Virus record (IMG/VR): IMGVR_UViG_3300014819_000043
Span: 1-29,684 of that record
Strand: one strand, 5' to 3'
DNA from: a virus
Length of the DNA stretch: 29,684 nucleotides
How positions within the stretch are numbered: the stretch's first letter is position 1; every line of letters begins with the position of its first letter. Made by a program: the position numbers and the translations under genes. A model generated the notes under the pieces. It worked only from the letters and a program-made list of their open reading frames with translations. It searched no databases and had not been told where the DNA came from. Below are positions 1,450-23,755 of this stretch, piece by piece.

Positions 1450-2574
1450 ATGAGAAATAAAAAATATACTGGTAGTCCTTCCCTTAAATGGCTATTTGAA
1501 CAAGCTCCTGCGGCTGCTCCAGCACCTGCTGCTGGCGCTCAAAATCCAGAGCAACAAAAAGCAAAAATTGCAGATATTAACTCTATTAATAAAAACACAA
1601 ATATTGCAGATGTAGATCCAAAAGCAATTGTAACTGCGATGCAAAATCCGGAAGCAAATCCAAATATAATAAAAATTATTGAAAAACCTGCCGAAGAGAT
1701 TAAAGCTTTGGTAGCTAAAATTGGACCAGATGAATTAGCTAAACGTATTGGAGAGATTGGCGCCAAATTACCTAGCACCGGTTTGCCAAAAAATGAGATG
1801 CCATTCTTGCCAGCAACAGATATTAAGGATTGGAATGATTCAGAAGCAGTATCTAAAATGATTGATGCAGTTTCTCCAGGCGGGGAATATCAGGTTGATT
1901 TTAATGCTCCATTTTATGATATGAAATCTGGCGCAGAAAAAACGGCAGAAGCAGGAAAAGGATCCGAATCAACTCAGCAACAAGGTATGCAAGAAGCTGC
2001 CCAACATAAATTATTAGAAATGGGAGTAAAAAAACTAGCTGAGATGTTAAATGAGGAAGAAGGACCGGCTTCTGTTGCTATCAACACTTTGAATACAAGT
2101 CCTTCAGACGCCGAAGAATGGCTAAAAGCTGGCGTTAAGGATGGAAAAACTGGAGATGACGAACCGGCTGTTGCATATCAAGATCAAGCTCCATTAACAA
2201 TTAATAAAATGGTGCCAACGCAGAAAAACGTATTGATTGGAAAAAGCTTAAATTTTGCTGTTGGCAATTACCCAACACCAGGAACAGAATTAGGAGCTTA
2301 CGTAGTAGATGCTGGAAATGGCATAGAGATACTAGATGGTCATCATCGCTGGGCGGGGGGTTATTTATTAGATCCAAACATGAATTTAACCGGTCATTTA
2401 TTTAAATCTTCAATTCCAACTAGAAAATTACTTCCAATATTAACTCGTCTAGGCAATGCTTTAGGCAAACCAACAAAAACAGATGAAGCATTTAAACGTG
2501 TAGGTAGTCTTATTCGTGAGGCTGCATGGAGTATTGATCGTTGGCAAGTTTTAGCAGGAATAAAAAGAGGTTGA
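1450..2574 (+). CDS. ParB/sulfiredoxin-like protein with N- and C-terminal tags, 374 aa
   Basis: The key motif is ILDGHHRWAGGYLLDPN, with D296-G-H-H-R-W301, which resembles the G-x-H/R-R-x-x-A phosphate-binding turn of the ParB/sulfiredoxin fold. ParB-fold members include DNA-binding CTPases, nucleases and sulfiredoxin (ATP-dependent cysteine repair), so the reaction here is undetermined. Residues 1-17 carry a tag (SLKWLFEQ at 10-17), followed by a Pro/Ala/Gln-rich linker and a helical middle; the last residues contain DRWQVLAGI. All three elements recur in the next gene, its paralogue. AAAGG at 1437-1441 is the ribosome binding site. The codons for the last residues (AAAAGAGG) double as Shine-Dalgarno for the next gene. 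I infer a non-structural cargo protein. Confidence 0.65.
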   Translation: MRNKKYTGSPSLKWLFEQAPAAAPAPAAGAQNPEQQKAKIADINSINKNTNIADVDPKAIVTAMQNPEANPNIIKIIEKPAEEIKALVAKIGPDELAKRIGEIGAKLPSTGLPKNEMPFLPATDIKDWNDSEAVSKMIDAVSPGGEYQVDFNAPFYDMKSGAEKTAEAGKGSESTQQQGMQEAAQHKLLEMGVKKLAEMLNEEEGPASVAINTLNTSPSDAEEWLKAGVKDGKTGDDEPAVAYQDQAPLTINKMVPTQKNVLIGKSLNFAVGNYPTPGTELGAYVVDAGNGIEILDGHHRWAGGYLLDPNMNLTGHLFKSSIPTRKLLPILTRLGNALGKPTKTDEAFKRVGSLIREAAWSIDRWQVLAGIKRG

Positions 2575-2575
2575 T

Positions 2576-3754
2576 ATGAAAAATAATAGATACACAGGTC
2601 GTCCGTCCCTTAAGTGGTTATTTGAACAAGCTGATGCCGAAGCGGATAAAAATGCTGCTGCACCAGATAGCGTAAGTGCAGAAAAAATAGCCGCATTATG
2701 GAAACTTCCATATGCACAATTCGTTGAACAACTTAAGGTTGTGGCAAAAGACCCAAAGCTTCGTGCGTTCTTGGCTGCTGGGAAAAAAGATGGAGCACCG
2801 GGTGATGAAGGAGTTAAAGTTTCAGCAACTACTATTGCTGGCAAAGCTTTAAGTCCAACTCAAAGCGAAATCGATCTAGGCGGTTCCGTTGGATGGTCAT
2901 TTAAAAATCCAGGTGGAATAGCAGCTTTCTATAGTGGTGGCGCATGGCAAGGCGGCGACGATCCTATTATAACCGCAGGAGGAAAATGGGTTATCGATGG
3001 TCATCACCGTTGGTCCCAAGCAATGGTCTTTAATCCAGATGTTACTTTAGCTTGCATTAATATCAACATTGCAGATCCAGAAATGGCATTAAAAATGACT
3101 CAAGCGGCAATTGCAGTAACAAAAGGCGACGTTCCAACGCAAGGCGTTAAGCAAGGAATGAACGTATATGGCATGGGATTTAATGACATCATAGCTAAAT
3201 TTGCAGGCGGCGGCTCAACTTTATTAACTCTAGATGTTGTAAAGCAATTGCAAGGAAAATTAGTTGTTAGTGCAACTCCAGATGAAATAGAAGCAGCCAA
3301 TGCATTGCCTAACAAGCCAACCGGTCCAGCAGCAGCTAGTCAAAAAATTGCTCAGGCTAGCGCAAGTGGAGTAGCTCCTGCGTCTGCTTATGGAGAAATG
3401 TCTCAAGCCTTAAAAGAACAAATTAACATGAAAGGCTTCGAAGGTCTTGCAAACGTTGGAAATGAAGCAAATACGGGAACGGTTGTTCCTTCAGGGGATC
3501 CTGGCGCTCAATGGGGAACTTGTGCTGCTTCTTTGGCACACAATTGCAAGACATTGCCAGCAGCAGGAAAATTCCCACGTCCAAAGATGCCACAAACAGG
3601 AACTGGAGATGGTGGGCCAGGTTCAGAAGGACTTTCTACCGCATTACAAAGCGGCGATATTAACTTTAAGCCAGGTTACGATATTCAAAAGGAAAGCGTC
3701 CGTTTTGATCTAGATCGTTGGAAACTATTAGCTGGAATAAATAAAAGAGGCTGA
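2576..3754 (+). CDS. ParB/sulfiredoxin-like paralogue with N- and C-terminal tags, 392 aa
   Basis: Paralogue of the upstream gene: the N-terminus YTGRPSLKWLFEQAD, the DGHHRW motif (141-146, followed by SQAMVFNPDVTLACI) and the C-terminus DRWKLLAGI all align, and both have a PTQ segment ahead of the motif. Here the motif lies about 155 residues nearer the N-terminus and a longer Ala/Gly/Pro-rich region follows it, so the two copies differ in linker placement. One base separates it from the upstream stop and AAGAGG precedes its ATG, so translation is coupled. The C-terminal domain includes two cysteines (CAASLAHNC) with no obvious role. Enzymatic activity is unknown; a DNA-binding or nucleotide-binding ParB-like role is the best guess. 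Confidence 0.65.
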   Translation: MKNNRYTGRPSLKWLFEQADAEADKNAAAPDSVSAEKIAALWKLPYAQFVEQLKVVAKDPKLRAFLAAGKKDGAPGDEGVKVSATTIAGKALSPTQSEIDLGGSVGWSFKNPGGIAAFYSGGAWQGGDDPIITAGGKWVIDGHHRWSQAMVFNPDVTLACININIADPEMALKMTQAAIAVTKGDVPTQGVKQGMNVYGMGFNDIIAKFAGGGSTLLTLDVVKQLQGKLVVSATPDEIEAANALPNKPTGPAAASQKIAQASASGVAPASAYGEMSQALKEQINMKGFEGLANVGNEANTGTVVPSGDPGAQWGTCAASLAHNCKTLPAAGKFPRPKMPQTGTGDGGPGSEGLSTALQSGDINFKPGYDIQKESVRFDLDRWKLLAGINKRG

Positions 3755-3755
3755 A

Positions 3756-4856
3756 ATGAAATTAAAATTAAAACATTTGCTAACAGAATTGTTTGAGCAA
3801 GATCAAGAAACCCCGCCTTCTTCTGGTAAAGAAGAAAAAGGTGTTGTTACTGCTGGAGATCCAGTTCCAGGTGATGCAGAACCAAAGAAGCAAGTTCACG
3901 TATTTGACTTTGATGACACATTAGGTGTTACAAAGGATGCAAATGGTATAATGGTATATCGTGATGGTGTTCCATTAAAAACTCCACAAGAAATGCAACA
4001 ATGGTTAGCAAGTAAGGGAATTGGACAGGATTATATGTTAACCGGTCCAAAAGGTGGACAGATTGAACAACCAGATGGCGTTGATGGTATCGCCGCTTAT
4101 ATTAATTCTGCCGGTTTAGCTAAAGCACGTGAAGGAATTAATAACGTATTAGTCTCTCCAACCAAACCAACGCCTGGAGATCCGAAGTTTGCTGGCGAAG
4201 CAATTGTAGCTGACTATAGCCCTTCATCTACTGCAAAATCAGCAGAACCAATCGACTCAACATTATCTAAAATTAAAAACTTGCCTGCGGGTGCAACAAG
4301 TCAAATTATTACTGCTCGTTCTGGTGAAAGTTCCGGAAGAATTCCAAAAGATTTCGCAGGACAACCTCATCCTCCGTCTGTTGAATCTGATTTAAAAGAT
4401 TTTATGACATCGCAAGGCGCTAACTTAACAAATGGAATAAAAGGTCTAGGCGGCGGAAATAAGGGCGATGCAATTAAAAAGTTATATTTTGATGGCAAGC
4501 CACCAGAACAACAACCAGACGAAGTACATTTCTATGATGATGATGCAAAAAACATATCAGATGTTAAAAATGCATTAGGCGGCAAAGTACCTGCTGAAGT
4601 TTTCTTGTATGGACCTGGAGAATTTGAAAAAAATCAAGCAAATCCTGAAAGTCCAAATCAAGAGTTTCCTGCTGCACCAGAAACTCCTGGTCAAGAACAA
4701 AGCCTCAAAGAATATAGACTTATGAAGCTTAATAGAATGTTAGCTGAAGCTCATAGAAAAAATGATGCTACTCGTTATCGTGTTATAAAGAAGATGATAA
4801 ACGAAGAACACGAGAGGGTGTATCTTAATCGTTGGCGTAAGCTAGCAGGTATTTGA
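3756..4856 (+). CDS. HAD-superfamily phosphatase-like protein with tags, 366 aa
   Basis: Has the HAD motifs in order: motif I D51-F-D53-D-T-L, motif II around T186 (IITARSG), and motif III-like FYDDDAKNISDVKNAL at 259-274. These place the nucleophile aspartate and the Mg-binding acidic residues. A long insert (about 60-180) between motifs I and II would form a cap. The N-terminus MKLKLKHLLTELFEQ is a short helix like those of its neighbours, followed by a disordered Pro/Glu linker. The C-terminus has a second helix (SLKEYRLMKLNRMLAE) and ends in RWRKLAGI, without the KRG extension found upstream. It closes a three-gene operon before a terminator. The substrate is unknown; HAD proteins of phages include 3'-phosphatases and nucleotidases. 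Confidence 0.75.
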   Translation: MKLKLKHLLTELFEQDQETPPSSGKEEKGVVTAGDPVPGDAEPKKQVHVFDFDDTLGVTKDANGIMVYRDGVPLKTPQEMQQWLASKGIGQDYMLTGPKGGQIEQPDGVDGIAAYINSAGLAKAREGINNVLVSPTKPTPGDPKFAGEAIVADYSPSSTAKSAEPIDSTLSKIKNLPAGATSQIITARSGESSGRIPKDFAGQPHPPSVESDLKDFMTSQGANLTNGIKGLGGGNKGDAIKKLYFDGKPPEQQPDEVHFYDDDAKNISDVKNALGGKVPAEVFLYGPGEFEKNQANPESPNQEFPAAPETPGQEQSLKEYRLMKLNRMLAEAHRKNDATRYRVIKKMINEEHERVYLNRWRKLAGI

Positions 4857-4875
4857 AAGTAAAATACAAAAGAAG

Positions 4876-4898
4876 AAGGGAGCGAAAGCTCCCTTTTT
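4876..4898. terminator. Bidirectional intrinsic terminator between convergent genes
   Basis: An eight-base-pair stem, AAGGGAGC with GCTCCCTT, closed by a GAAA tetraloop and followed by T residues on the plus strand. On the minus strand the stem is followed by a C/T-rich stretch. It lies just after the stop of the plus-strand HAD gene and overlaps the stop of the minus-strand HAD gene, so it can serve both. Confidence 0.8.
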
Positions 4899-5449
4899 CA
4901 TTTTATTAATCTAGCTATGATTTTAACGCCAGGAACTTTTAATCTTTGAACGGCGGCTATATTCTTTGGACTATCATCAAAGAACTCAATCTCTTTATAT
5001 CCAAACTTCATAGCTACCATCTTAATCCATTGAGCTTTCATTTCCGGATCGCTATTGCCGAGGGCAACAACAGGAATTTCTGGGATATCGTTTAAACGAA
5101 AGAATTCCCGAGCTGGTTCTTCACTTCCACGTGCGGTAAGAATAACTGCGCTGTCAGTTCCATGTTTTGCAATAACAAGCTTTAATATTTTTGTTGTCCA
5201 ACGTATAGCTTTAGGATCTTTTAATCCTTGAAAGTCGGAATAATCAAATTCATCGCCGGGTTCTTTTTCATATACCGCATATTCTGCTGGATTTAAATCT
5301 AACAGCTCACCCGAAGCTTTTTTAATATGAACTTTGCTATTTGTTTTTACAAGAGTATCATCAAGATCGAATATACGTAATTTCTTTCCAGCTTGCAACG
5401 TTTCTTTGATGATTTCATGTATATAAGTTTTTAAAATTTGATTGCTCAT
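4898..5449 (-). CDS. HAD-superfamily phosphatase-like protein with N-terminal tag, 183 aa
   Basis: Compact HAD protein: motif I IFD28-L-D30-D-T-L, motif II ILTARG (103-108) and motif III-like FFDDSPKN (156-163), all in the usual order, with candidate lysines at 138 and 143. The first 16 residues, MSNQILKTYIHEIIKE, precede the fold and match the LKEYI-type tag of other genes here. It is smaller than the neighbouring plus-strand HAD protein and only distantly similar, so it is not a recent copy. It is transcribed against its neighbours, diverging from the gp13-like gene with a gap of only 21 bases, so its promoter must lie in that gap or inside gene 13. No Shine-Dalgarno is visible. Substrate unknown. 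Confidence 0.75.
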   Translation of the reverse strand: MSNQILKTYIHEIIKETLQAGKKLRIFDLDDTLVKTNSKVHIKKASGELLDLNPAEYAVYEKEPGDEFDYSDFQGLKDPKAIRWTTKILKLVIAKHGTDSAVILTARGSEEPAREFFRLNDIPEIPVVALGNSDPEMKAQWIKMVAMKFGYKEIEFFDDSPKNIAAVQRLKVPGVKIIARLIK

Positions 5450-5456
5450 AATATCA

Positions 5457-5468: not shown

Positions 5469-5470
5469 AT

Positions 5471-6742: not shown

Positions 6743-6766
6743 GTAGTCAAAAGCTCCCCTCTGTTC

Positions 6767-6773: not shown

Positions 6774-6783
6774 ATATAATGAT

Positions 6784-6817: not shown

Positions 6818-8191
6818 ATGAAACTATTAAAAGAATATATCACATTACTTGTTAAAGAAGCTATGGATGAAGACGTTAACCTAAAACGTCTAAATCCTGG
6901 AATGTTAGGCATTTATTCTCTTGCTCAAGCTATTAATAAGCTAATCTATGAGGGAGATGCATTGCCTGGAGCCTTGCCAATAGACATTATTAGTTCCGGA
7001 AAAGAATTAAAGTCTGCTCCAATGATAACAGATACAGAAAGAAATTCTGGAGTATCCCTTCAGCATACCGGCTCTACTTTCAAATTATATATTGATCCTT
7101 CTAAAGCAGGAACTTTCATGAGTGGCGATAATGAAACTCATGATATTATGCATACGATTACTGGACACCTTGCCAAAGCAATAGCCAGAAGAAGAGAAAG
7201 CCTCGAGGCTTCTGGCCAATATGGTGGTACTCCTTCCAAATTCAATAAAATAACTTTGAAAAAAGATGAAATTGCGGATTTTACGGATAAGTTTGAAAAA
7301 ACATTTGGGTATAAGTTACCATATTCAGTTTTTGAAAAAACATTTGAATTGAAAAAACCTACCGAATATAGCAATTGGTTTGTTAAAACAGTTTGGCCAA
7401 AAATTAAGAATAAGAACGTTAAAATATACGGAAATACTGTTAACAAAGATAACTTCATATATATCGGCTATACGATATGGAAATCTGTATATGGTCCAGG
7501 CGGCGTTCTTCCAGGTATTTTTGGACACAGATCTTGGGGAAATGTTGATATCTCCAATGCTAAACTTGATCCAGCAGATCCGGATAATTTCGGAGCACCA
7601 ACAGTAGGCAAAGGTAGCCCTGGAAAAGTTGCTTGGAAACAATCCATGGAAGACGAAGAAATGCTTGGAAATGTCATTAACATGGCTATTAGTTATGAAG
7701 TGGAAGCTGGTCAACCTATTGACGTTAAAAACGTTGTTTATAAAATATTTAGTAAATATCAACAAGCACCAAGTCCAAGCACTAACGTGGGAAATATTAA
7801 GCCGCAAGAATATAAACTAAGATACAATACGCTAGAAGCAAGAAAAGCGTTAACGAGATTATTTGAGTTATATAATCAAATGTTGCAGCGTTATACGGTT
7901 GGTCTATCTACCGCTCAACCAGCTCGTAAACAAGCTGCGAAAGCGGCAGAGAACATATATGATCGTGAGCAGGTAACACCAGCCCAACTAAACGCTGCCA
8001 GACAGAGTTTAGCAGCCAAAAGAGAACCTTCTCCATTCCCTGAACCCGCTCCAGCAAGAAGACCTCGCAGAGCACCTGCTGCTCCCGCTCCTGCACCAGC
8101 TCGTCCAACCAAAAAAGCCCCAGCTCGTCCAACCAAAAAAGCCCCAGCACGTCCGACTAAAAAAGCACCAGCAAGAAGAACTAAAAGATGA
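6818..8191 (+). CDS. Tagged protein with H-D-x-x-H motif and basic repeat tail, 457 aa
   Basis: Begins with MKLLKEYITLLVKE, the clearest form of the N-terminal tag. A conserved domain follows (IYSLAQAINKLIYEG, then SAPMITDTER) with the motif H108-D-I-M-H112-T-I-T-G-H117, a candidate metal site. That motif resembles the HDxxH of COQ4-type proteins, but the similarity is short and I would not assign function. From about residue 370 the chain is low complexity, Ala/Pro/Arg-rich, ending in three and a half copies of PARPTKKA. This histone-H1-like tail suggests nucleic-acid binding. Residues 1 to about 150 align closely with the next gene. The start aligns with that paralogue; an ATG at 6779 would add 13 residues. 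It interrupts the usual gp13-gp14 adjacency. Confidence 0.65.
   Translation: MKLLKEYITLLVKEAMDEDVNLKRLNPGMLGIYSLAQAINKLIYEGDALPGALPIDIISSGKELKSAPMITDTERNSGVSLQHTGSTFKLYIDPSKAGTFMSGDNETHDIMHTITGHLAKAIARRRESLEASGQYGGTPSKFNKITLKKDEIADFTDKFEKTFGYKLPYSVFEKTFELKKPTEYSNWFVKTVWPKIKNKNVKIYGNTVNKDNFIYIGYTIWKSVYGPGGVLPGIFGHRSWGNVDISNAKLDPADPDNFGAPTVGKGSPGKVAWKQSMEDEEMLGNVINMAISYEVEAGQPIDVKNVVYKIFSKYQQAPSPSTNVGNIKPQEYKLRYNTLEARKALTRLFELYNQMLQRYTVGLSTAQPARKQAAKAAENIYDREQVTPAQLNAARQSLAAKREPSPFPEPAPARRPRRAPAAPAPAPARPTKKAPARPTKKAPARPTKKAPARRTKR
8096..8188 (+). repeat. 24-bp tandem repeat encoding PARPTKKA units
   Basis: Three units of 24 bases (8096-8119, 8120-8143, 8144-8167) and a partial fourth. Units 1 and 2 are identical, unit 3 has a few substitutions. 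They encode the Lys/Arg/Pro/Ala tail of the tagged protein. Identity at the DNA level suggests recent expansion by slippage or unequal exchange. Confidence 0.9.
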
Positions 8192-8301
8192 GCCGGTTAT
8201 TCATAACAAGTGGAACGCTACCAATTAGAAGAAGAAGATATGAACCTATTAAAAGAATATATCCGTCTTATAATCAAAGAGCAATTGGAAGAAGATATTG
8301 A
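8188..8301 (+). pseudogene. Fragment of gp14 5' end (first eight codons) left by a duplication
   Basis: An ATG overlapping the stop of the upstream gene (ATGA) opens a 37-codon frame that begins MSRLFITS, identical to the first eight residues of the gp14-like protein at 9357. The 16 bases 8195-8210 are identical to 9364-9379. After codon eight the sequence switches to the 25-base repeat and the similarity to gp14 ends; the remaining frame is arginine-rich and runs into the next gene out of frame. It reads as the junction of a tandem duplication. It could still act as a coupling leader peptide for the next gene. Confidence 0.6.
8208..8232 (+). repeat. 25-bp direct repeat, copy 2
   Basis: Identical to 6784-6808. 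It follows directly on the gp14 fragment, sharing the bases AAG with its end, which fits a duplication junction with three bases of microhomology. It ends seven bases before the ATG of the second paralogue. Confidence 0.9.
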
Positions 8302-10108: not shown

Positions 10109-11341
10109 ATGGCTGTTGACCCAAAAGAGAATGTCACAAGACAGAACATACCACAAGACCCAAGAAATCCTAAAGATCATCTTGATAGTGGTTATGAAAA
10201 TCAGCCAAGCTTAGATTTCACTATCCCTCCAGTTGGTATAGAAGATATCGATTTTGCCATTCATCGTTTATTTGATAAGACTATTGGTTTTAATACTTTC
10301 ATGGTGAGCGCCGCAAAAGGTCCGCAAAATGTAAAGAAACCATATGTTATCTTTGCTACCGGTGAAAGATTTGCTCTTGCAAAACGTCTTAAACCACCAA
10401 GAGATAAAAATAAAGTCCTTATTCTTCCAGCTATATCCATTCGTAGGACCGCTATAGAACAAGCTCCTGATGATATTACCGGTAGAGGCATGAACCAATA
10501 TACTGGGGTTATAACAATAAAAAGAAAATTAGCTCCAGAAGATAGAGATTATCAAAACCTTGTTAACAAACAAGGATTAAAGAACTTACAAAGCGTTCTT
10601 TCTGGATTACCAACTTCTAATAGACCTACCGGCGATGATAAAAATGAATTGGAAGTTGTTCAAGGTGGATTGTTACAAAATAGACTATCTGCAAATAACA
10701 TATATGAGATAATAACAATTCCGCAGCCACAGTTTTTTACTGCGAAGTATGAAGTTGTGTTTTGGACGAATTATACCCAACACATGACATATCTTATTCA
10801 AACATATATGACCTCTTTTCTTCCACAGTTTAGAGGGCATAAATTAGAAACCGATAAAGGTTATTGGTTTCTTGCATACACAGAAGACAGTTTCTCCAAT
10901 GGAGAAAACATCGATCAGTTTGAAGGTGAGGAGCGTCTTATAAAATATACCTTTAATATTAACGTTAAAGGTTATTTATTGGCTGCTCAAGCGCCTACAA
11001 ATGCTGTTCCTGTAAGAAGATCGATTAGTTGTCCAAACTTAGTATTTGATATTGCAATAGCTGGAGATATACAACCAAAAGACGTTTTGGAAAGACCTCC
11101 AATCAAAGATACTCCTAATGACGGTTTTACATTAACAGATATCGATATGGACCCCGCAACAAAACAAACTGAAACTACATTACAAAAATTTGCTCTTAAT
11201 AAGACTTTAATTGACCCAATAACTGGAAAGAAGCATAAGAAATACGTATCTATCTTAGATGTCAATCAAAAAAAGGGAGAAACAGTGTTTGCAGCTTCAG
11301 ATATTGAAACTTTAGAAGAATATTTAATATCATCCAAATGA
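10109..11341 (+). CDS. gp15: Tail completion/sheath-stabilising protein, T4 gp15-like, 410 aa
   Basis: Two segments match T4 gp15 in pattern and order: YEVVFWTNYTQHMTYLIQTY near residue 213 (T4 Y-E-L-S-I-F-T-R-Y-x-D-D-M), followed by SFLPQF, and IKYTFNINVKGYLL near residue 276 (T4 I-E-W-S-L-T-F-E-V-N-G-W). T4 gp15 forms a hexamer capping the tail tube and sheath and connecting to the neck. This protein is longer than T4 gp15 (272 aa), with an added N-terminal region beginning with a disordered Asp/Pro stretch and a C-terminal extension. It follows gene 14 by 11 bases and precedes the sheath genes. TACTTAG lies four bases before the ATG. In T4 the terminase genes 16 and 17 would follow; here they are absent. 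Confidence 0.75.
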   Translation: MAVDPKENVTRQNIPQDPRNPKDHLDSGYENQPSLDFTIPPVGIEDIDFAIHRLFDKTIGFNTFMVSAAKGPQNVKKPYVIFATGERFALAKRLKPPRDKNKVLILPAISIRRTAIEQAPDDITGRGMNQYTGVITIKRKLAPEDRDYQNLVNKQGLKNLQSVLSGLPTSNRPTGDDKNELEVVQGGLLQNRLSANNIYEIITIPQPQFFTAKYEVVFWTNYTQHMTYLIQTYMTSFLPQFRGHKLETDKGYWFLAYTEDSFSNGENIDQFEGEERLIKYTFNINVKGYLLAAQAPTNAVPVRRSISCPNLVFDIAIAGDIQPKDVLERPPIKDTPNDGFTLTDIDMDPATKQTETTLQKFALNKTLIDPITGKKHKKYVSILDVNQKKGETVFAASDIETLEEYLISSK

Positions 11342-11383
11342 AGAAATAGTGGTGTAGTAACCCCTAATTAGAAAAAGAAAAGG

Positions 11384-11402
11384 CTTCAACGCTGATTTGA
11401 AG
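11384..11402 (+). promoter_or_regulatory. Short hairpin in the leader of the first sheath gene
   Basis: CTTCAA and TTGAAG can form a six-base-pair stem with a seven-base loop, ending just before the purine-rich Shine-Dalgarno AGAAGAAGGA of the sheath gene. It could be a weak 5' stabilising or processing structure. With only two G-C pairs it may be chance. Confidence 0.25.
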
Positions 11403-11418
11403 AAGAAGGATAAACCAA

Positions 11419-14400: not shown

Positions 14401-14445
14401 GCCCTCGACTTCATTGTCACAAGAGAAGGCGTTCAATTCGGTTGA
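11419..14445 (+). CDS. gp18: Tail sheath protein 1, T4 gp18-like, 1008 aa
   Basis: Contractile tail sheath subunit. The N-terminal region (GVPAGIVGSSVKGPAFIPY, then FQTKFGGF and TFIRVLGAG) is the conserved sheath N-terminal fold. The last 150 residues (YPWFAPAGFNRAAL, VNPIVKFPNEGYVIFAQKTL, INVQRMIMDVQRQV, and a closing strand VEFIALDFIVTREGVQFG) form the conserved C-terminal domain that interlinks neighbouring subunits. T4 gp18 has 659 residues; the extra 350 here lie in the middle and likely form surface-exposed domains. Its RBS is AGAAGGA, and a 50-base gap separates it from a second sheath gene. The pair is paralogous throughout. Confidence 0.95.
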   Translation: MPDQVFKFPGYYDREIDLTARVVAPNGVPAGIVGSSVKGPAFIPYTLGSFSDFQTKFGGFNPNLTAPYAVEKFLQNRNALTFIRVLGAGSNTTSIDIAATQTAGIVKNAGFKLSASNGWGTVANSTRAVGAVQFLVARHDLQPGESAPSGFPMFTDNNSYVDASLGVNLVRGVIFAASGSRVMIMSASNEAFTPGLNDTAIYSTPANSEEPYFKIVISTSLGTSYATDDGFVGVKIYSASFNPTSDLYFGKLLNTDPSKFEEEQHYLYADFAVDDEVATVVQSNINGVLIASGTLNTSTTSGLPNEKFLAAYGRFDTRYTTPRTPAFISQPYGSTEHDLFHIEALDDGQYISDKIKISVQSLQASTNPIYPYGTFAITVRQFGDTDINQAVIEQFTDLTLDPDSDNYIGKIIGDAKAYFNFDVEDPDDRRIVRSGKYANKSNYIRVVISDAVEQKMVPSSVLPFGFRGVDVLNTNPKFTDVSSSIASQRRLVGIGSQDTFGCEGAIVPPVPYRYKVTRNSGSLEITDARLFWGVKFERNNNNVENVNINNEQNRFIAAATKFAGISKLDVVVTGSSKDNFNNNKFTLARVAVSGVNDISGLTGTASTQMRKAQYIRNGVVDPTTYNVNGFVTFASLVHEGTQPITFNKYNNYAKFTTFLYGGFDGVNILDKHAVRFDDKSTSIEVDGGAYSAFVSPGFSANQNGIGIENNQINSYRIATDIITNPIASNINLLSLPGQREPFVTDYASDRASGFGLALYLMDIPNYNSSGDRIFDGEILGTSSFIDVQQTANNFDTRSIDNTFVSAYFPDVIIADPQTNKRITVPATVAALAAIGYNDKVAYPWFAPAGFNRAALNFVTLTRTRVNQGEREKLYQVRVNPIVKFPNEGYVIFAQKTLDGAGTSLDSINVQRMIMDVQRQVIDIGNKLIWQQLTPALYNEFISRVTPILSLVQNRGGLRQFKVVCDNTNNTMLDRENNKMNAKIYLLPVKAVEFIALDFIVTREGVQFG

Positions 14446-14495: not shown

Positions 14496-17400
14496 ATGAC
14501 ACAAATATCGTTCAAATCAGCAGGCGTTTCGGCTAGAACAATAAATCTAACAGGACCAACGGCAATACAGCCTTCTGGTATTCCTGCTGGTGTGATTGGT
14601 ACCTCTATAGCTGGACCAGCATATGTACCAACAACCGTAGCTACCTACAATGATTTTCAAGCAACCTTTGGAGAAACAACTAATGACATATATGTTGGTC
14701 CATTAGCGGTTTCCGAATGGTTAAGAAACGCTCAAGCTGCTACATTTATTCGTGTTCTTGGAGCCGGAGCAGGCAATGCTAGAACTGTTGATACGGATGC
14801 TGCTGGTGGAAATCGTGGAAAGGTTGAGGGAGCAGGTTATGTCGTCGGCGGTGAGTTGCCAGAATATTGGAATGGATTTGCAGGCGAATTAACCGCTTCT
14901 CAATATGCTACTTTTGGTAACTCTCTTGGAAGAACATACTTCCTTGGTGCTTTCATGAGCCAATATGAAACAACTGCCTCTAATACCATAGTAAGCTCTT
15001 CAATGTTAACAGACGCTGGTTTATCAGCAAATGGAGCTCCGATTGTTCGTGGCATTCTTTTCGCAGCTAGTGGTACTCTTCTAACGTTATCTTCTTCTAT
15101 TAGCAGTTCAAATGTCGTTTCTACAGGCACAACAACACCAGGAGGTGCAGTTACCGGCTCTGTCAAACTTCTTAATGGATTACAAGAATTCGTTATGCTT
15201 GTAAATGGTCTTACAAATACCGATCCAATGTATCCAAGTGTAATTACTGCATCTTTTGATGTTGAAGCTCCAAACTACTTTGGCTCTTTAATGAATAGAG
15301 ATCCATTAAAGCTTGAACAAGCCGGATACTACTTGCAAACAGATTGGGTTATTCATCCATCACAAGCAGTTGTAACAGGTTCTGGCATTATCCTAAATAC
15401 TGATAATGGTGTTAAAAATCTACGTACAACATTTGGTTTAGAAAACGTTGCATTCCTTGTAACTGGTTCAAAAACAAGAAATAGTGGTTCTCTATATGCT
15501 CCTAACTATGAAAACTTTGAAGACCGTTATCGTACTCCAAAGAGCCCATGGTTAACTTCACAAAAGTTCGGCGGCAAACCAGTTAATCTTTTCCGTATTC
15601 ACTCTGTGGATGACGGCGTATACGCAAACGATAAAGTTAAAATCTCAATTGAAAATATTACTCCAAGCCTTTCTGACGTTTATCTCTATGGAACGTTCGA
15701 TCTTCTAGTAAGAGATTTCTCAGATAGCGATAAGAGCAAAATTGTTTTAGAACAATATAGAGGATTATCATTAGACCCAACAAATCCAAATTATATTGCA
15801 CGTGTAATCGGAGATTATAATACTTTTTATAACTTCGACACAGAAGATGGAGCTTCAAAGCTTGTCACTCTAGGAGATTACACAAATAACTCCAAATATA
15901 TTCGTGTTGAGGTTGCCTATGGGGTTGATGCACAGGACGTAGATCCAACGGCTCTACCGGTTGGTTTCCGTGGACCAGCTCACTTAGTAACTTCAGGTTC
16001 TGTACCACTCGCTGGGTTTAATGATGCAACGACGTATGCCGTAACAAATCCATTAAGAAAAACAGTTCAGATGCCAATACCATTCCGTGACAATCTTGTT
16101 CGTGGTATTGCTCCAAATACTACTTCGGATAAGGGTCTATATTGGGGCGTTCAATTTGAGCGCAAAATATCTGCCATAGAACCAAATAAAACAACAATAC
16201 CAGAAACAAGCATTCGCAGCTTTGCTAGCTATTTCCCAAATTTCCAAACTGATTACCAAAACTTTGTGGTAATGGATAATGAAGGAGCTATCGATACTGT
16301 TGAAAATGGGATTGTTGATGCGGATCGTTTTAATAACAATGGTTTCTCACTTGAAAATATTCAAATCAAATATCGTGTAATTCCAGGTAGTACGGCCACT
16401 TTCCCAAACAATACAATCCCAGATACTACTCAAGCAGTAAGCTGGAATTATGTCAGAAACGGACAAGTGACTACAAATACAGGTTCTCTTGTAAGAAGAC
16501 TTTCAGTAGCCGATCTAGCAGATCCAGCTACCCGTCAACTTGGTAAGTTCAATCTATATCTTCAAGGCGGATTTGATGGCGTCAACATCTTCAACTATGA
16601 TGAGCGTTATCTAACGAACAAAGCAATAAATGAAGAACTTGATTTTGCAAATCGTGGTGAACAGAATGGTTCTGCTGTAGTAGCATATAATACCGCACTC
16701 AATCTAATAGCAGATGCTACAGAAGTTGATGTACAACTATTTGCAATCCCTGGTATACGTAATCCATCTATTACAGATAAAGCTATAGAGACAGCCGAAA
16801 ATCGTTTTGATGCTCTTTATATCATGGACATAGAAACATATGACACGGATGGCATTTTGGTAGCCAGCGAAGATCAAGTACCATCTGTACGTTATACGAT
16901 TAACAACTTCCGTGATCGTAATATCAATACGTCTTTTGGAGCTACATATTTCCCAGATGTCATTATGAGAGATACCGTAGCAAACACGTTACGTCAAGTA
17001 CCACCATCTGTTGCGGTCCTTGGTGCTTTCTCTTATAACGATGCTGTAGCTTTCCCATGGTTTGCCCCAGCCGGTTTCGCAAGAGGTGGTCTAGCAACCA
17101 CAGAGCGTTCAACGATTGAACTTTCCAGAACTAACATGGATGACCTCTATGAAGTTGATATCAATCCAATCGTATCCTTTGCAGGATCTGAAGGTTTGGT
17201 AATCTGGGGTCAAAAGACGATGTATGCACAACAATCAGCTCTTGATCGTGTAAACGTTCGTCGTCTTCTTCTATCTATTCGTAGACAAGTTCGTCAAGTT
17301 TCTAATCGTATTCTCTTCGAACAAACTCTACCAGAAACCCTTACACGTTTCTCACAGCTTGTCAATCCAATACTTAAGCGTGTACAAGAACAAAAGGGCG

Positions 17401-17561
17401 TTGATCGTTTCCTTGTACGTATCGATACTAGCACCACAACTCAAGCTGATTTCGAGAATAAGACAATCCGTGGTAAGATTTTCTTACAACCAACTCGTAC
17501 CCTCGAGTTCTTGTCCGTAGACTTCGTAATCAACAATCCAACCAACTTTGGTCAAGGCTGA
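14496..17561 (+). CDS. gp18: Tail sheath protein 2, T4 gp18-like paralogue, 1021 aa
   Basis: Second full-length sheath protein, alignable with the first at both ends: GIPAGVIGTSIAGPAYVP and TFIRVLGAGAG near the N-terminus, FPWFAPAGFARGGL, INPIVSF, VIWGQKTM, VNVRRLLLSIRRQV and FLSVDFVINNPTNFGQG at the C-terminus. Both ends are intact, so neither copy looks decayed. The middle regions are more divergent. Possible roles are a mixed or alternating sheath, or two sheath types in different tail segments. The start follows an AAAAGGC purine tract. The next gene begins six bases after its stop. Confidence 0.95.
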   Translation: MTQISFKSAGVSARTINLTGPTAIQPSGIPAGVIGTSIAGPAYVPTTVATYNDFQATFGETTNDIYVGPLAVSEWLRNAQAATFIRVLGAGAGNARTVDTDAAGGNRGKVEGAGYVVGGELPEYWNGFAGELTASQYATFGNSLGRTYFLGAFMSQYETTASNTIVSSSMLTDAGLSANGAPIVRGILFAASGTLLTLSSSISSSNVVSTGTTTPGGAVTGSVKLLNGLQEFVMLVNGLTNTDPMYPSVITASFDVEAPNYFGSLMNRDPLKLEQAGYYLQTDWVIHPSQAVVTGSGIILNTDNGVKNLRTTFGLENVAFLVTGSKTRNSGSLYAPNYENFEDRYRTPKSPWLTSQKFGGKPVNLFRIHSVDDGVYANDKVKISIENITPSLSDVYLYGTFDLLVRDFSDSDKSKIVLEQYRGLSLDPTNPNYIARVIGDYNTFYNFDTEDGASKLVTLGDYTNNSKYIRVEVAYGVDAQDVDPTALPVGFRGPAHLVTSGSVPLAGFNDATTYAVTNPLRKTVQMPIPFRDNLVRGIAPNTTSDKGLYWGVQFERKISAIEPNKTTIPETSIRSFASYFPNFQTDYQNFVVMDNEGAIDTVENGIVDADRFNNNGFSLENIQIKYRVIPGSTATFPNNTIPDTTQAVSWNYVRNGQVTTNTGSLVRRLSVADLADPATRQLGKFNLYLQGGFDGVNIFNYDERYLTNKAINEELDFANRGEQNGSAVVAYNTALNLIADATEVDVQLFAIPGIRNPSITDKAIETAENRFDALYIMDIETYDTDGILVASEDQVPSVRYTINNFRDRNINTSFGATYFPDVIMRDTVANTLRQVPPSVAVLGAFSYNDAVAFPWFAPAGFARGGLATTERSTIELSRTNMDDLYEVDINPIVSFAGSEGLVIWGQKTMYAQQSALDRVNVRRLLLSIRRQVRQVSNRILFEQTLPETLTRFSQLVNPILKRVQEQKGVDRFLVRIDTSTTTQADFENKTIRGKIFLQPTRTLEFLSVDFVINNPTNFGQG

Positions 17562-17567
17562 TAGACA

Positions 17568-18122
17568 ATGAAATTTATATATACAAATTATGGCATCTTA
17601 ACTGAGGACCATGTTCGTGAATTAAAAGAATGCGGATATGGAGTTGACGAATGTGGTTCTTGGGATGTTGAAGAAGGCGCACCACTACGTATGTCTAATG
17701 GTTACATAGGCGACGAAATGGAAGCTCCATCCTCTAAAGTAATATTAATTCGTGGTGGCGGCTTGGAAGAGGGCGATACTTCATCTCCAGCAGATGGTGG
17801 CTCAGTAACTGGAACACAAGTTGCATTGTCAATGCCAAATGGACCTGGAGGAGCTCCAAGTCCATCAGGTGCCAACGTTCCAAATTCATCTGAACCAAAA
17901 AGCAAACCAGATGTTGTAGTTCCACCTTCAATGGATATGAAGAAAGAAAATTACAATCGTCATGTAGAACGTATATTAGAAGCCTGGATGGAAGAAGAAT
18001 TGCATGGAGATCAAGATAAGCTTGATTTGGATGATGACGGCGAAATTGAAGCAAGTGATCTCATGCTTATAAGACGTGGTTTAAAAGATAAACAAGTTGG
18101 CAAAGACAGAAAACGCAGTTGA
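17568..18122 (+). CDS. Hypothetical protein with a single EF-hand-like loop, 184 aa
   Basis: N-terminal part MKFIYTNYGILTEDHVRELKEC looks folded; residues about 60-120 are Gly/Pro/Ser-rich and probably disordered. Near the C-terminus is the helix NYNRHVERILEAWMEEEL and then a 12-residue calcium-loop pattern D153-L-D155-D-D157-G158-E-I160-E-A-S-D164, followed by a helix (LMLIRRGLKDK). Asp at the last loop position is as in dockerin modules; canonical EF-hands have Glu there. A single loop suggests metal-stabilised folding or pairing with another subunit. It sits between the sheath and tube genes, so a tail-associated role is plausible but unproven. No strong ribosome binding site; translation may be coupled to the sheath gene. 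Confidence 0.65.
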   Translation: MKFIYTNYGILTEDHVRELKECGYGVDECGSWDVEEGAPLRMSNGYIGDEMEAPSSKVILIRGGGLEEGDTSSPADGGSVTGTQVALSMPNGPGGAPSPSGANVPNSSEPKSKPDVVVPPSMDMKKENYNRHVERILEAWMEEELHGDQDKLDLDDDGEIEASDLMLIRRGLKDKQVGKDRKRS

Positions 18123-18667: not shown

Positions 18668-18693
18668 TTACAAATACAGTTATCCTTTCGTAG

Positions 18694-18722: not shown

Positions 18723-18723
18723 C

Positions 18724-18730: not shown

Positions 18731-18735
18731 AGCAT

Positions 18736-20262
18736 ATGGATATGATAGAACAATCAATGAAACAATATGAGCGTATTCGTAAAGGATATCCTAGGTTATT
18801 CTCAGACGCTCATAAGATTGCAAAGCTTATTATAAAAGCCTCTAAAAAGGATTTTGAGCCCATTAAAACTTGGCGCTACCTACAGAGGTTGAAGCAAATA
18901 GAAAGCCGTAAAAAGGGTTATAGCCCGGTTCCTGATATGGTTATTAATATCTTCTTTGACGCCAAGTTAACTCGTGATGAAGAACGTGCAAAAGTAAAAC
19001 AATATTATTTGGACGTTTTAAAAGTCGGACAAAAAGATATTAATGAAATGTCTTTGTTGAAAGAATATATTAAAACTATTCTGGAGCAAGAAAGTAAGCT
19101 TCATCCTATCAAAAAGGGTGAATTAGCAGATATCTCAACTAGTGACGATATTGCAAAAAGAGTAGCTGGTGATGTAGCTCTAATGGTTAATGACATATAT
19201 GGTGCTATGGGAGCCGAATCAAATAATACTGGCGAAGACGTATTGAAACGTTTTACAAATATGGGTATAACGGACGTAGATGATGATCCGGAACCTGATG
19301 CCGCTATATTATATACTAATTGGGGCGGCTCAAAGAAGTTATCCAGAGTAGGTCATGATGGAACTGGTCCTGGCAAGGAAGCTGTAAAACAATTAATGAA
19401 AAAATTGTTGAATGAGCCTGGAGCATGGGCAGAAGCATCAGGAGCACCTGCTAACGTATTAATATCCAAATATAATCTTCCAACAGTTAATGATGAGAAG
19501 ACAGTAAGAACTTTGCTATCTGGTATTAATGATATTGAATGGCATGGCAAACACCCATATGGAATATCTTATGGCGATGGATGGTATACGAGAACATTGC
19601 CAAATGGTAAAAAATCTACCAAGATAATTGTTGGCAATCCTCCTATTAAAGAAGTCGCTTTAATAAAAGAATATATCAGTTTAATAATAGAAGATATTGC
19701 TACTAAATTGGCTCCAGCAAAAAAGGGAGATGTTGTTAACGTTGCAACAAATAATGATACGGCTATAACTGTAGCTCCAGACGTTTCTGATTTAGTTAAT
19801 AAAACTTATGGAGGTATGGGTGGTTTCCCAGGTGCAGATACACCAGAGGGCGTCCTAAACCGATTTACAGATTTCTATTTGTCTGATGTTGATGAAGACC
19901 CTGAACCTGACGCTGGTATTCTTTATACTGATTGGAAAGGTTCTAAAAAGGCTTCTGCTCTTGTAACAGATGGTGGTCCAGAATCAAAGACTAAACTAAG
20001 AGATATGATGGATACATTTTTTAATCAAAATGGTTCATGGATAGAAGTTTCTGGAGCGCCTGCAAACATTCTTGTAAGTAAGATGGGAATGCCAACTATT
20101 GAGGATGAAGAAACGGTAAGAAAGTTATTACCTAAAATTAAAGACCTCATATGGCATGGAAAGCATCCAGATGGGATTGCATATGGCAATGGTTGGTATA
20201 CAAGAAACATTGCTGGACAAGACCAAACAAAGATTATTGTTGGAAATCCTCCAAGCGTATAA
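18736..20262 (+). CDS. Polyprotein-like protein with two tagged repeat domains, 508 aa
   Basis: Residues 1-104 form a basic helical domain (YERIRKGYPRLF, WRYLQRLKQIESRKKGY) I do not recognise. Then come two copies of a domain of about 200 residues, each beginning with the tag: LLKEYIKTILEQ at 107-118 and LIKEYISLIIED at 309-320. Each copy contains DPEPDA-I-LYT-W-GSKK, then SGAPANVL-SK, then WHGKHP-GI-YG-GWYTR and ends K-IIVGNPP. Conserved W, H, Y and R suggest an active or ligand-binding site, but I cannot name the family. Internal tags suggest proteolytic separation into three pieces or fusion of once separate genes; an ATG at 19048 begins the first tag but lacks a clear ribosome binding site. 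Confidence 0.65.
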   Translation: MDMIEQSMKQYERIRKGYPRLFSDAHKIAKLIIKASKKDFEPIKTWRYLQRLKQIESRKKGYSPVPDMVINIFFDAKLTRDEERAKVKQYYLDVLKVGQKDINEMSLLKEYIKTILEQESKLHPIKKGELADISTSDDIAKRVAGDVALMVNDIYGAMGAESNNTGEDVLKRFTNMGITDVDDDPEPDAAILYTNWGGSKKLSRVGHDGTGPGKEAVKQLMKKLLNEPGAWAEASGAPANVLISKYNLPTVNDEKTVRTLLSGINDIEWHGKHPYGISYGDGWYTRTLPNGKKSTKIIVGNPPIKEVALIKEYISLIIEDIATKLAPAKKGDVVNVATNNDTAITVAPDVSDLVNKTYGGMGGFPGADTPEGVLNRFTDFYLSDVDEDPEPDAGILYTDWKGSKKASALVTDGGPESKTKLRDMMDTFFNQNGSWIEVSGAPANILVSKMGMPTIEDEETVRKLLPKIKDLIWHGKHPDGIAYGNGWYTRNIAGQDQTKIIVGNPPSV

Positions 20263-20278
20263 TTCGTTAGATATTCTC

Positions 20279-20285
20279 ATTTATA
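20279..20285 (+). promoter_or_regulatory. ATTTATA element upstream of the gp26-like gene
   Basis: ATTTATA about 55 bases before the ATG at 20341, matching the core of other putative late elements in the window. It would produce a leader of roughly 50 bases that contains the hairpin at 20306-20328. Confidence 0.3.
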
Positions 20286-20305
20286 CATTCTAAGCTGTCA
20301 TTATA

Positions 20306-20328
20306 CAATTGAAGAGTTATATCAATTG
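20306..20328 (+). promoter_or_regulatory. Leader hairpin abutting the Shine-Dalgarno of the gp26-like gene
   Basis: CAATTGA and TCAATTG form a seven-base-pair stem with a nine-base loop. The final G of the stem is the first G of the strong Shine-Dalgarno GGAGGAAG (20328-20335). The structure could tune translation of the chaperone, whose product is needed in small amount. The stem is weak (two G-C pairs). Confidence 0.35.
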
Positions 20329-20340
20329 GAGGAAGAAATA

Positions 20341-21231: not shown

Positions 21232-21280
21232 AGAAACCGTTCTTCTAGAGCCATTCTTTTTATTAGGTTATTATTTCGGT

Positions 21281-21481
21281 ATGGATTGGGATACGTATTA
21301 TAACTTTCCAATCTCCTTTAAAAGATGGCTCATTAAAAGAATAGAAAAAGAAATAACCAAAGCACAAGAAGCACAAAGTGATATCCCCAGTAAAGCCCCA
21401 CATCATAATACACCAGATGTAAGATCCCTTACTGGGAAAACAAGATCACAAGTTCCGCAAAAACTTCAACGCTTTACTTAG
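21281..21481 (+). CDS. gp51: gp51-like hub assembly domain, probably expressed by frameshift from the gp26-like gene
   Basis: The first ATG gives 66 residues beginning MDWDTYYNFPISFKRWLIKRI, followed by a polar, disordered tail. There is no Shine-Dalgarno before this ATG, and the same frame is open upstream to 21185. The upstream codons VLLEPFFLLGYYFG continue the hydrophobic, aromatic helix that leads into WDTYYNFP, as expected if the domain begins before the ATG. The pattern aromatic-LP/FP-x-x-x-R-W is what I associate with gp51-type hub catalysts or tail chaperone extensions that follow gp26 in T4-like phages. The likely product is therefore a gp26-gp51 fusion of about 380 residues made by a minority of ribosomes. 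Confidence 0.5.
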   Translation: MDWDTYYNFPISFKRWLIKRIEKEITKAQEAQSDIPSKAPHHNTPDVRSLTGKTRSQVPQKLQRFT

Positions 21482-21526
21482 ATCAGACAAAACTATACCT
21501 GTGCATCATAGACCAAATCTTAACAA

Positions 21527-22072: not shown

Positions 22073-22080
22073 AATTATTC

Positions 22081-23205
22081 TCAAGCAATAGAACGTGCAA
22101 CAGCACCGGCGGCTAGTTCAGAAGCAACAGTTGCGGCTGCTCGTCCTCCTGCTACTAATTCTCCCGCTTTTACAGATGCAGCAGTTGGTTCTGCGGCAGC
22201 GAGTGCTACACTTCCATGAGCACCACTTATTGCTCCTGATATGCCATGTGACCAGAAACCATGAATAATATGATATACTGTTGGCAATGCAGATATAAAC
22301 AGTATTAAAATATATATTTGAAATATTGTTGCTTCTAATTTTAGTCTTAAAGCAGTATCTTTTTGCCAATCTTCATATGACATTGCGCCGCTAGCTTCTT
22401 TTGTTTGCAAATCAGCTAACTTTCCTGCGGTTTTAATATCTTCTTTGGAAGCAACGGTTGTACCTTTGTTGTTACCAAGCTTTAAATATTTTTTATGTAG
22501 GTCTTGTCCTTTCCCTACTTTCCAGTATGCTTGATAGATATAATAAGAAAGCTTGTCAGGAACTGATCTATCAATTAAAGCTTCTTCAGCTTTATGTGCA
22601 TAGTGAAACAGATGTCCTATCCAAGAACAAAATTTTCCAAAAGCTTTCCAAAAATCAGATTGAGATTTTTGTAACCAAACTCCTAGTTTTTCTAAACCAG
22701 AACCAATTAATGAAATAAGTTTAAGACCTGCCAACGTAATACCACCGAGGGTAAGAGGATCTATAAACTCAAGTAGTTTTCGTTCGCTACCAAACAACTT
22801 ATCCGCTTCTGCAAAATAAGCCTGAGCTTCTTTTAATATGTTGTTATGTTTTTTTGCTACGAATAATTTTCTTTCAGCAATTTGACCGGTTTGTGATTTA
22901 AGATTTTTTGTGGCAGCATCCCATTGTTGTATGGTATTTTGAAATGCGTTCATATCTTGGGGCATTGCAACTGAACTGCCACTCTTATTGATAAGATTAT
23001 AAATTTCCATTATATCTGGATTGTTTTTATAACCTTGAACTTTTTTAACTAGTCCATCAAATTGTTGTATCATTGCTTCTATGGTTTTTTGTCCAGCCTC
23101 AACAACGCCTTGTTTAACACGTTGAACTATTCCTTGTTCAAGTAGTAATGAAGCAACCTCACGTTGAATAATTGTTTCTAGCAAAAGCTTTTCTGAAGAA
23201 TTCAT
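22081..23205 (-). CDS. Putative membrane-interacting protein with N-terminal tag-like helix, 374 aa
   Basis: The ATG at 23205 lies four bases after the upstream stop with GAAGAGA as ribosome binding site; a longer frame from 23280 would overlap that gene and is not favoured. The N-terminus MNSSEKLLLETIIQREVASLLLEQ is an amphipathic helix similar to the tags elsewhere. Residues about 25-150 are helical and probably coiled-coil; a hydrophobic stretch follows (IDPLTLGGITLAGLKLISLIGSG is cut here to its character: Gly/Leu/Ile-rich). A transmembrane segment is visible near residues 295-315 (IYILILFISALPTVY), then a Gly/Ala-rich hydrophobic tail. Such a layout fits a protein that enters or crosses membranes, perhaps an ejected internal protein. 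No family recognised. Confidence 0.6.
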   Translation of the reverse strand: MNSSEKLLLETIIQREVASLLLEQGIVQRVKQGVVEAGQKTIEAMIQQFDGLVKKVQGYKNNPDIMEIYNLINKSGSSVAMPQDMNAFQNTIQQWDAATKNLKSQTGQIAERKLFVAKKHNNILKEAQAYFAEADKLFGSERKLLEFIDPLTLGGITLAGLKLISLIGSGLEKLGVWLQKSQSDFWKAFGKFCSWIGHLFHYAHKAEEALIDRSVPDKLSYYIYQAYWKVGKGQDLHKKYLKLGNNKGTTVASKEDIKTAGKLADLQTKEASGAMSYEDWQKDTALRLKLEATIFQIYILILFISALPTVYHIIHGFWSHGISGAISGAHGSVALAAAEPTAASVKAGELVAGGRAAATVASELAAGAVARSIA

Positions 23206-23209
23206 ATTG

Positions 23210-23755
23210 TCAATCTCTTCTGGAACGTTTACCAGAGCATTTCCATTTCTTACGTGATAATCTGAGGGGACTGTTAGCATCTTTAGCGGCAGAAGGATGA
23301 TCTTTCATTTGACCGTAAGAGCGAGCACAGTAGCTGTCGCCCTTTGAGGTTCCTGGAGCAATTGAATAACCTTTTGCTCCATAACGAACTGTTTTCTTAT
23401 TCTTGCCAGAACCGACAACCTTTTTGTATTTCTTTGAACCTGTATATTTTTCAGCAAGATTTGAACGTTGTTCTGTGCCCATAAGATCTGAAACAATTCT
23501 ACTGATCAATTCTTCTTCAATATCAGGAAAGAATTCATTATCTAAGATATTTCTTACCATATCTTTAAGTTTAGCTAAAGATCTTTCATCATATTTGGCA
23601 TCATCTACATATTGATCAAAATCAGCCAGCGTATCAAATCCTTCTTCTCCAAATGCTTTTTGAAGAACAGGTATAGCTGTATTTTTTGTAAAATCAGTTT
23701 GAATATTCTCATGGAGAAGAAAGTTTAATACGTTCTTAATATTATAGTTTGACAT
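23210..23755 (-). CDS. Hypothetical protein with basic Cys/Trp C-terminal module, 181 aa
   Basis: Residues 1-17 (MSNYNIKNVLNFLLHEN) form a short helix comparable with the tags. The middle is acidic and helical (LAKLKDMVRNIL, EEELISRIVSDLM). The C-terminal 60 residues are basic: YGAKGYSIAPGTSKGDSY, then C143-A-R-S, then SPLRLSRKKWKC173 and a final RSRRD. The Y-C-x-R-S ... S-R-x-x-W-x-C pattern recurs in marine phage proteins in my memory as a domain of unknown function; the two cysteines could bind metal or pair. The start has AAAGGA six bases upstream. It is coupled to the genes on either side within the minus-strand operon. Confidence 0.65.
   Translation of the reverse strand: MSNYNIKNVLNFLLHENIQTDFTKNTAIPVLQKAFGEEGFDTLADFDQYVDDAKYDERSLAKLKDMVRNILDNEFFPDIEEELISRIVSDLMGTEQRSNLAEKYTGSKKYKKVVGSGKNKKTVRYGAKGYSIAPGTSKGDSYCARSYGQMKDHPSAAKDANSPLRLSRKKWKCSGKRSRRD

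Follow-up and report, generated by a model that had tools for sequence, protein, structure and literature searches.

The 29,684-base viral IMG/VR record IMGVR_UViG_3300014819_000043 (hereafter the window, meaning the whole stretch) comes from an uncultured T4-like myovirus and covers its module for neck, tail and baseplate, with an Ad2-type neck protein, a gp19-type tube, a T4_baseplate protein, a tape measure and two sheath paralogs. We observe that window proteins with unrelated domains have in common an N-terminal helix of the LLKEYIxLIIKE type that ends in (I/L/V)xE (the tag). These tags are likely to be head-targeting signals of the T4 type, whose carriers would be packed in the head, trimmed by the prohead protease, and probably delivered with the DNA. 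Head targeting of the tagged proteins appears well supported, if indirectly, trimming near the tag Glu is plausible, and injection into the host, suggested by analogy, is unproven.

Non-randomness and conservation of the tag

Motif counts refer to a clade set of 445 open reading frames (ORFs) constituting 147 families in 11 related contigs. Relatives extending upstream of the window are G002 (50.9 kb), approximately 100% identical over the overlap and reaching about 29 kb further (when it is turned to the window orientation, its position 28,948 is window position 1), G009 (53 kb; several of its cargo proteins are 52–64% identical) and G010 (103 kb).

An LLKEYI-like regular expression matches near the N-terminus in five unrelated families of the clade set and at the heads of both repeats of the 508-aa protein; three stray matches are internal. 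Leave-one-family-out profiles, compared with internal 40-mers, place six held-out carriers at p = 0 to 0.007; the weaker of these would not survive correction taken alone. When all N-termini were compared without supervision, the overall excess was modest (six pairs vs. 2.0 expected at a score of at least 30); at a score of at least 38, two pairs are observed vs. 0.007 expected, and the tagged genes form the top non-homologous pairs. Generic hydrophobic-x-Glu expressions proved over-permissive and were dropped as a stand-alone criterion.

Conservation of the tag acts on the protein level; synonymous codons vary between tags. When the tag was compared with the next 30 residues between G002 and G009 or G010, the tag was conserved at 100 vs. 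76% in the H-D-x-x-H proteins, 100 vs. 46% in ParB-like protein B, 90 vs. 60% in ParB-like protein A, 81 vs. 36% in the N-terminal segment of the scaffold, and 86 vs. 50, 70 vs. 33 and 66 vs. 23% in the proteins at 21463, 14259 and 16506, respectively.

The helix had originally been noted on the minus-strand HAD protein, both H-D-x-x-H proteins and twice in the 508-aa protein, and these positions are exact on re-check. Out of its proposed shorter relatives, SLKWLFEQ on both ParB-like proteins and LLTELFEQ on the plus-strand HAD protein stand, while LLLEQ at 22081 is a weak carrier, since it is sited at approximately residue 46 of the ORF and has no amphipathic moment. The attached domains were held to be unrelated, and five unrelated families do carry the tag, but the two ParB-like proteins are probably paralogs and their identical SLKWLFEQ therefore counts as one event.

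A scaffold-type tail on candidate cargo proteins

The C-terminus of both ParB-like proteins and of the plus-strand HAD protein is RW[QKR]xLAG[IM], and the scaffold of the clade ends in [ED]KWQILANIK in six contigs out of six. The strict tail motif is present in three cargo families and in the scaffold, and absent from every other family among the 445 ORFs. Scaffold-position proteins of distant relatives end alike: RMKKLAGIVK in the Microcystis phage Mel-JY01, RWQKLAGIIK in the Flavobacterium phage immuto, RWGELAGF in L078 and RMQKLADIS in LR756508.

The motif W-[QK]-x-L-A-G-[IM]-K was sought in IMG/VR by exact matching at the DNA level, the counts being a sample among the matches listed. Out of 214 viral coding matches, 197 lie at most 16 residues from the stop; these comprise 144 proteins whose N-termini resemble gp22, 31 truncated at contig ends, and 22 of other kinds. 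Several non-scaffold tail carriers in this sample have an N-terminal tag too (L218, FQDAWQEFLTEA; L256, WRSFLKEEA; L316, WKDFLAES), and several are long, low-complexity proteins. In bacterial genomes the WQ pattern is C-terminal in just 5 of 62 coding matches, whereas in the IMG/VR sample 108 of 111 coding matches to the RWxxLAGI tail lie at the C-terminus. In immuto the motif is also found N-terminally, with two proteins beginning MKKQILSEQFxRMQxLAGIITES.

The ParB-like and plus-strand HAD proteins are not themselves scaffolds, because the gp22 N-terminal region is absent from them despite the C-tail and enzyme-like domains are present. Protease sites ahead of the tail show no enrichment relative to upstream windows, although their distances peak at 8 and 26–29 residues.

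The head module upstream of the window

A prohead protease, presupposed by trimming as originally proposed, was located by genome search in the near-identical G002, about 8 kb left of the window. It belongs to the S77 type (PF03420, 82 bits, above the cut-off; also phrog_207, head maturation protease), is matched likewise in six other relatives (G009–G014), and lies in a module comprising a portal, a 287-aa protein, the protease, proteins of 183 and 161 aa, a protein at the scaffold position (674 aa) and the major capsid protein (phrog_138). The protease itself begins with MKLLKEFKEFNYEIIKE, the 183-aa protein between protease and scaffold carries KGMIKDCIRELIKE, and the scaffold, FLLEQ. The original statement that no structural protein is tagged thus holds inside the window, where profile scoring finds no tag on the recognised sheath, tube, baseplate and tape-measure proteins, but not for the head-core proteins just upstream.

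In T4, gp21 cleaves after L/I-x-E and carries LIE-9 in its own sequence, and cleavage of Alt takes place at both of its ends (PMC9026906). The T4 gp23 cut FLTE/A aligns to LLKE/T, ILKE/N or LISE/A in the capsid proteins of the clade, the position being inferred from the alignment.

Beyond the window, tags are also carried by a Ser/Thr/Gly-rich protein (MFMNRQLLKEYIGLIVQQALKE) and by proteins of 441 aa (ALLREYLQLKLNKILKE) and 423 aa (NLEKLLFENILE). The last of these (G002, reverse complement, 16506–17777) resembles a PD-(D/E)XK nuclease by eye (EAK motif), with no match in a Pfam search; close to its C-terminus lies another tag-like segment, MISNLTNILTYLLEE. A chaperonin-like ORF, its family called by eye only, occupies 10974–12719 of G002 (reverse complement) and is kept in G009 and G010.

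Tagged proteins in cyanophage virions

Virion mass spectrometry has been published for the cyanophage S-CREM2 (PMC10665884), and the proteins detected in its virions include enzymes with T4-like tags, namely a SAM hydrolase (MKDFDSFLEE), an APH-like kinase (VKRFDAFLTE) and NMNAT (MKNFSSFLTE), as well as two small proteins. The strict tag pattern is found in 5 of 43 detected vs. 0 of 152 undetected coding sequences (p = 4e-4, with the expression refined post hoc). A Cas9-like nuclease of S-CREM2 (L125, 7704–10313), reported in virions, has the T4-like tag RFASFMAE at residues 18–25. Six cyanophage NMNATs retain a T4-like tag, two of them being detected in virions; the second is from S-SCSM1 (MKSFLQFLKE).

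Tags in other phages

Searching IMG/VR with a start-anchored M-x-LLKEYI pattern, which also returns chance matches in short frames, retrieved real genes whose products have unrelated bodies, namely a DnaQ-like exonuclease (L089, L111), a kinase resembling zeta toxin (L107), a protein of 291 aa (L078, a T4-like relative) and more H-D-x-x-H proteins. The ParB-like protein of Mel-JY01 begins MGILKQLLKEI.

In LR756508 (484 kb, L128), start tags of the MKLTERKLRKIVKEE type are present on 23 of 65 ORFs at 150–200 kb vs. 1.1 expected, and only on 5 of 78 at 330–380 kb. An equal frequency of the tag on non-virion early proteins would have refuted the original prediction, and this was tested only indirectly: S-CREM2 speaks against it, S-SCSM1 is uninformative, and the tagged genes of LR756508 and immuto cluster in one genome region.

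Some further observations concern these phages. With approximately one third of its ORFs tagged, the 150–200 kb region of LR756508 would be a very large candidate head-cargo set. In LR756501 (L071, a 735-kb phage), many ORFs open with leaders similar to those of T4 internal proteins, e.g., MVKRYKQFINEG, MLKNYWTYIKES and MTKNYKSFVEA. A 145-aa tagged protein of L078 (4097–4534; MLLEAYIQEVFKE) has a metallopeptidase-like HELVHH motif. NT5C-type HAD nucleotidases with head-type signals (VRRFQKLAGI; ADLLLEES) are found in L089 (4707–5360) and immuto (109856–110455), and therefore tagged HAD phosphatases recur.

Tag carriers in the window

The carriers are listed in Table 1. The site triplets found in carriers are IKE, VKE, LFE, IIE, ILE and LKE, a triplet alone being no proof of cutting.

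Table 1. Tag carriers and related features of the window (a slash marks the predicted cut).
Feature	Position	Strand	N-terminal tag	C-tail	Remarks
ParB-like protein A, 374 aa	1450..2574	+	SLKWLFE/Q, nt 1483-1503	DRWQVLAGIKRG, nt 2536-2571	Ala/Pro-rich linker; DGHHRW ParB-like motif
ParB-like protein B, 392 aa	2576..3754	+	SLKWLFE/Q, nt 2609-2629	DRWKLLAGINKRG, nt 3713-3751	
Plus-strand HAD-type protein, 366 aa	3756..4856	+	LLTELFE/Q, nt 3777-3800	LNRWRKLAGI, nt 4824-4853	Linker; DFDDT motif
Minus-strand HAD-type protein, 183 aa	4898..5449	-	ILKTYIHEIIKE/T, residues 5-16, nt 5402-5437		Resembles polynucleotide-kinase family phrog_415
H-D-x-x-H protein A, 457 aa counted from ATG 6818	6818..8191	+	LLKEYITLLVKE/A, residues 3-14, nt 6824-6859		
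H-D-x-x-H protein B, 359 aa	8240..9319	+	LLKEYIRLIIKE/Q, residues 3-14, nt 8246-8281		
Tail sheath paralogs in tandem, ~1,010 aa each	11419-14445 and 14496-17561				
184-aa protein between sheath and tube	17568..18122	+	None in window copy		
508-aa protein	18736..20262	+			104-aa N-domain, then two repeats of tag + ~190 aa; tags LLKEYIKTILEQ, residues 107-118, nt 19054-19089, and LIKEYISLIIED, residues 309-320, nt 19660-19695
399-aa protein	22081..23280	-	LLLEQ (doubtful), residues 46-50		
181-aa protein	23210..23755	-	NIKNVLNFLLHE, nt 23708-23743		Additional carrier

The 508-aa protein consists of a short tail-region protein (111–119 aa in the G003, G007, G008 and L117 orthologs) followed by the two repeats. 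The short forms from G003, G007 and G008 have the tag, LKEYIVHVIREI or LIKEYIHHILKEL, as their C-terminus; hence, the extension of the 508-aa protein starts at the tag, and the tag can be C-terminal. The G008 ortholog of the 184-aa protein begins with MKITLEQLKRLIREATED, and the L083 counterpart with MKVTIQELRSLIAEAI, the latter having IVKIIKEELSK at the end as well. Orthologs of the 181-aa protein retain the tag (LLSYLLNE, LKYLIRHIIKE), and the sequence after it diverges.

In the structure model of H-D-x-x-H protein B, of moderate quality (predicted local distance difference test, pLDDT, 63), the tag forms a helix (pLDDT below 50) that does not pack against the body; a search of PDB with this model gave no matches at E of 0.001 or less. 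The model of the plus-strand HAD protein was rejected as unusable (pLDDT 40). No homologs of the H-D-x-x-H, plus-strand HAD or full-length scaffold proteins were found in the deposited phages searched.

Proposed mechanism and alternative explanations

We infer docking, packaging, cleavage, injection and post-entry functions as follows. The N-terminal amphipathic helix (LLKEYIxLIIKE, SLKWLFEQ, LLTELFEQ) would dock a late-made protein on the prohead scaffold core, and the RWxxLAGI tail of the ParB-like and plus-strand HAD proteins may help co-assembly with the core. After formation of the shell, the S77 protease would cut behind the (I/L/V)xE at the end of the tag, and DNA would be packaged. The mature, freed proteins would remain in the head with the DNA and leave with it, probably entering the host at infection, where they might act early in nucleic-acid end chemistry, anti-restriction or other takeover tasks. 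The ParB-like domain of the window is related to a short protein of Stenotrophomonas phage Marzo annotated as virion-associated (probability 95.5%) and, weakly (65%, profile match), to a domain of the DarB-like antirestriction protein of BcepIL02; these kinships fit delivery without proving it. More specifically, environmental T4-like phages may possess a two-ended packaging code, combining N-terminal core-binding helices with the borrowed scaffold C-tail RW[QK]xLAGIK, by which enzymes would co-assemble in the prohead as scaffold mimics; we regard this possibility as evenly poised.

Several observations weigh against head targeting with trimming and delivery. Conservation of the tag is not clearly above that of the rest in the minus-strand HAD protein, the plus-strand HAD protein and the protease, scaffolds commonly contain (L/I)xE triplets, with no enrichment directly before the tail, and the cut site in the clade capsid proteins comes from an alignment. 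The short orthologs of the 508-aa protein have a C-terminal tag, and their gene lies among tail genes. For S-CREM2 the pattern was refined once its N-termini had been seen, a looser generic pattern giving p = 0.017, and the authors of that study allow for co-purification of the detected proteins (PMC10665884). Once fixed, the S-CREM2 pattern was run on the first 100 kb of S-SCSM1 and found one carrier per class, detected and undetected (p = 0.5), which is too few to test. Finally, in the window's phage the tagged proteins are known from sequence alone.

The tagged proteins might instead be assembly factors that sit in the prohead core and are degraded there or act in head maturation, with no injection. 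This would agree with the tags and tail on the core proteins themselves, with the cleavage of T4 core proteins such as gp22 and gp67 into fragments (PMC9026906), and with the length and low complexity of several non-scaffold tail carriers. Still, we consider it unlikely, as the cargo proteins have conserved enzyme-like bodies, in some of which the motifs are intact (DFDDT, DGHHRW), and the tagged enzymes of S-CREM2 persist in mature virions. A docking helix of general use, by which several structures bind a shared assembly partner, a chaperone or tail components, is suggested by the location of tagged genes among neck and tail genes, by the tag-ended short orthologs of the 508-aa protein adjoining tube and baseplate genes, and by a tagged gene of immuto that adjoins baseplate genes; but the absence of tags from the recognised tail proteins, their presence on the protease and on the protein between it and the scaffold, and the nature of the second signal, a scaffold tail, make this explanation improbable.

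Composition or chance is already disfavoured, and we find it very hard to credit. Short L/K/E-rich amphipathic helices are common at N-termini, and generic hydrophobic-x-Glu patterns are frequent, e.g., four tagged genes vs. 2.9 expected in Mel-JY01 and p = 0.53 in S-SCSM1. On the contrary, the held-out profiles, the unsupervised top pairs, the real unrelated genes retrieved by the anchored pattern, the C-tail statistics and the tag excess in LR756508 all speak for a signal. Next to no credence is given to a leader that would affect how late proteins are expressed or how stable they are (through translation initiation or protection from degrons) rather than where they go: the tag does stand mostly at the start of late-region genes, but the codons differ between tags, the tag is also internal and C-terminal, and the scaffold tail would be left unexplained.

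Comparison with known systems

T4 internal proteins and Alt are packaged in the head via a short N-terminal signal and injected. The system described here shares with the capsid-targeting sequences of IPI–IPIII and Alt, and with gp21, a signal of 10–20 aa on unrelated proteins that ends in or near (L/I)xE, an S77 protease in a head module near portal, scaffold and capsid genes, and related N-termini on the protease and core proteins; LLTELFEQ resembles MELITELFDE of Alt. It differs in its main tag class (LLKEYIxLIIKE vs. MKTYQEFIAE of T4), in its more numerous and different cargo, in the scaffold C-tail on three cargo proteins, absent from T4 gp22, and in being read solely from sequence. We consider it well supported that the system, with its scaffold-tail signal, is a variant of capsid targeting as in T4 and not a new kind. 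The original interpretation is supported in part: head targeting is favoured by the protease, the core tags, the aligned capsid site, the scaffold C-tail and the cyanophage virion data, but the proposed "new injected-effector system" is overstated, because T4 internal proteins and Alt already work in this way. What is new lies in the classes of tag, in the cargo repertoire and in the mimicry of a scaffold tail. In the literature searched, we found neither these tags described in work on capsid targeting in environmental phages nor the scaffold-tail signal, and the paper on Baltic Flavobacterium phages offers no virion proteomics for them.

The gp22-type scaffolds of environmental T4-like phages have the RW[QK]xLAGIK C-tail and an LLEQ-type N-terminal segment, both recurring in the window cargo, which has enzyme-like domains in place of the gp22 EAIADAK N-terminal region. 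In phiKZ and SPN3US, head and ejection proteins are also processed after Glu by a gp21-related protease (PMC5694885). However, phiKZ-type propeptides mostly exceed 100 residues, have S/A-x-E or A-x-E as their motif and go with a protease of the S80 type, whereas here the tags are 10–20 residues long and end in I/L/V-x-E, and the protease of the near-identical relatives is of the S77 type; a propeptide system of that type does not match. With the virion-carried Dar antirestriction proteins of P1 the window shares the ParB-like domain, through the weak match to the DarB-like protein, which is consistent with a delivered anti-restriction role, but its proteins are small, tagged and from a T4-like phage, and the homology is confined to that domain.

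Significance

Phage proteins that enter the host are largely unknown beyond a few model phages, because virion proteomics is required. A signal readable from sequence would nominate injected enzymes in uncultured T4-like phages, here the ParB-like, HAD and H-D-x-x-H proteins, and elsewhere an exonuclease, a kinase, NMNAT, a SAM hydrolase and even Cas9. Scaffold-tail mimicry offers a testable route of cargo loading into large capsids and, if true, the two-ended code would let injected host-takeover proteins be listed from sequence in thousands of uncultured phages.

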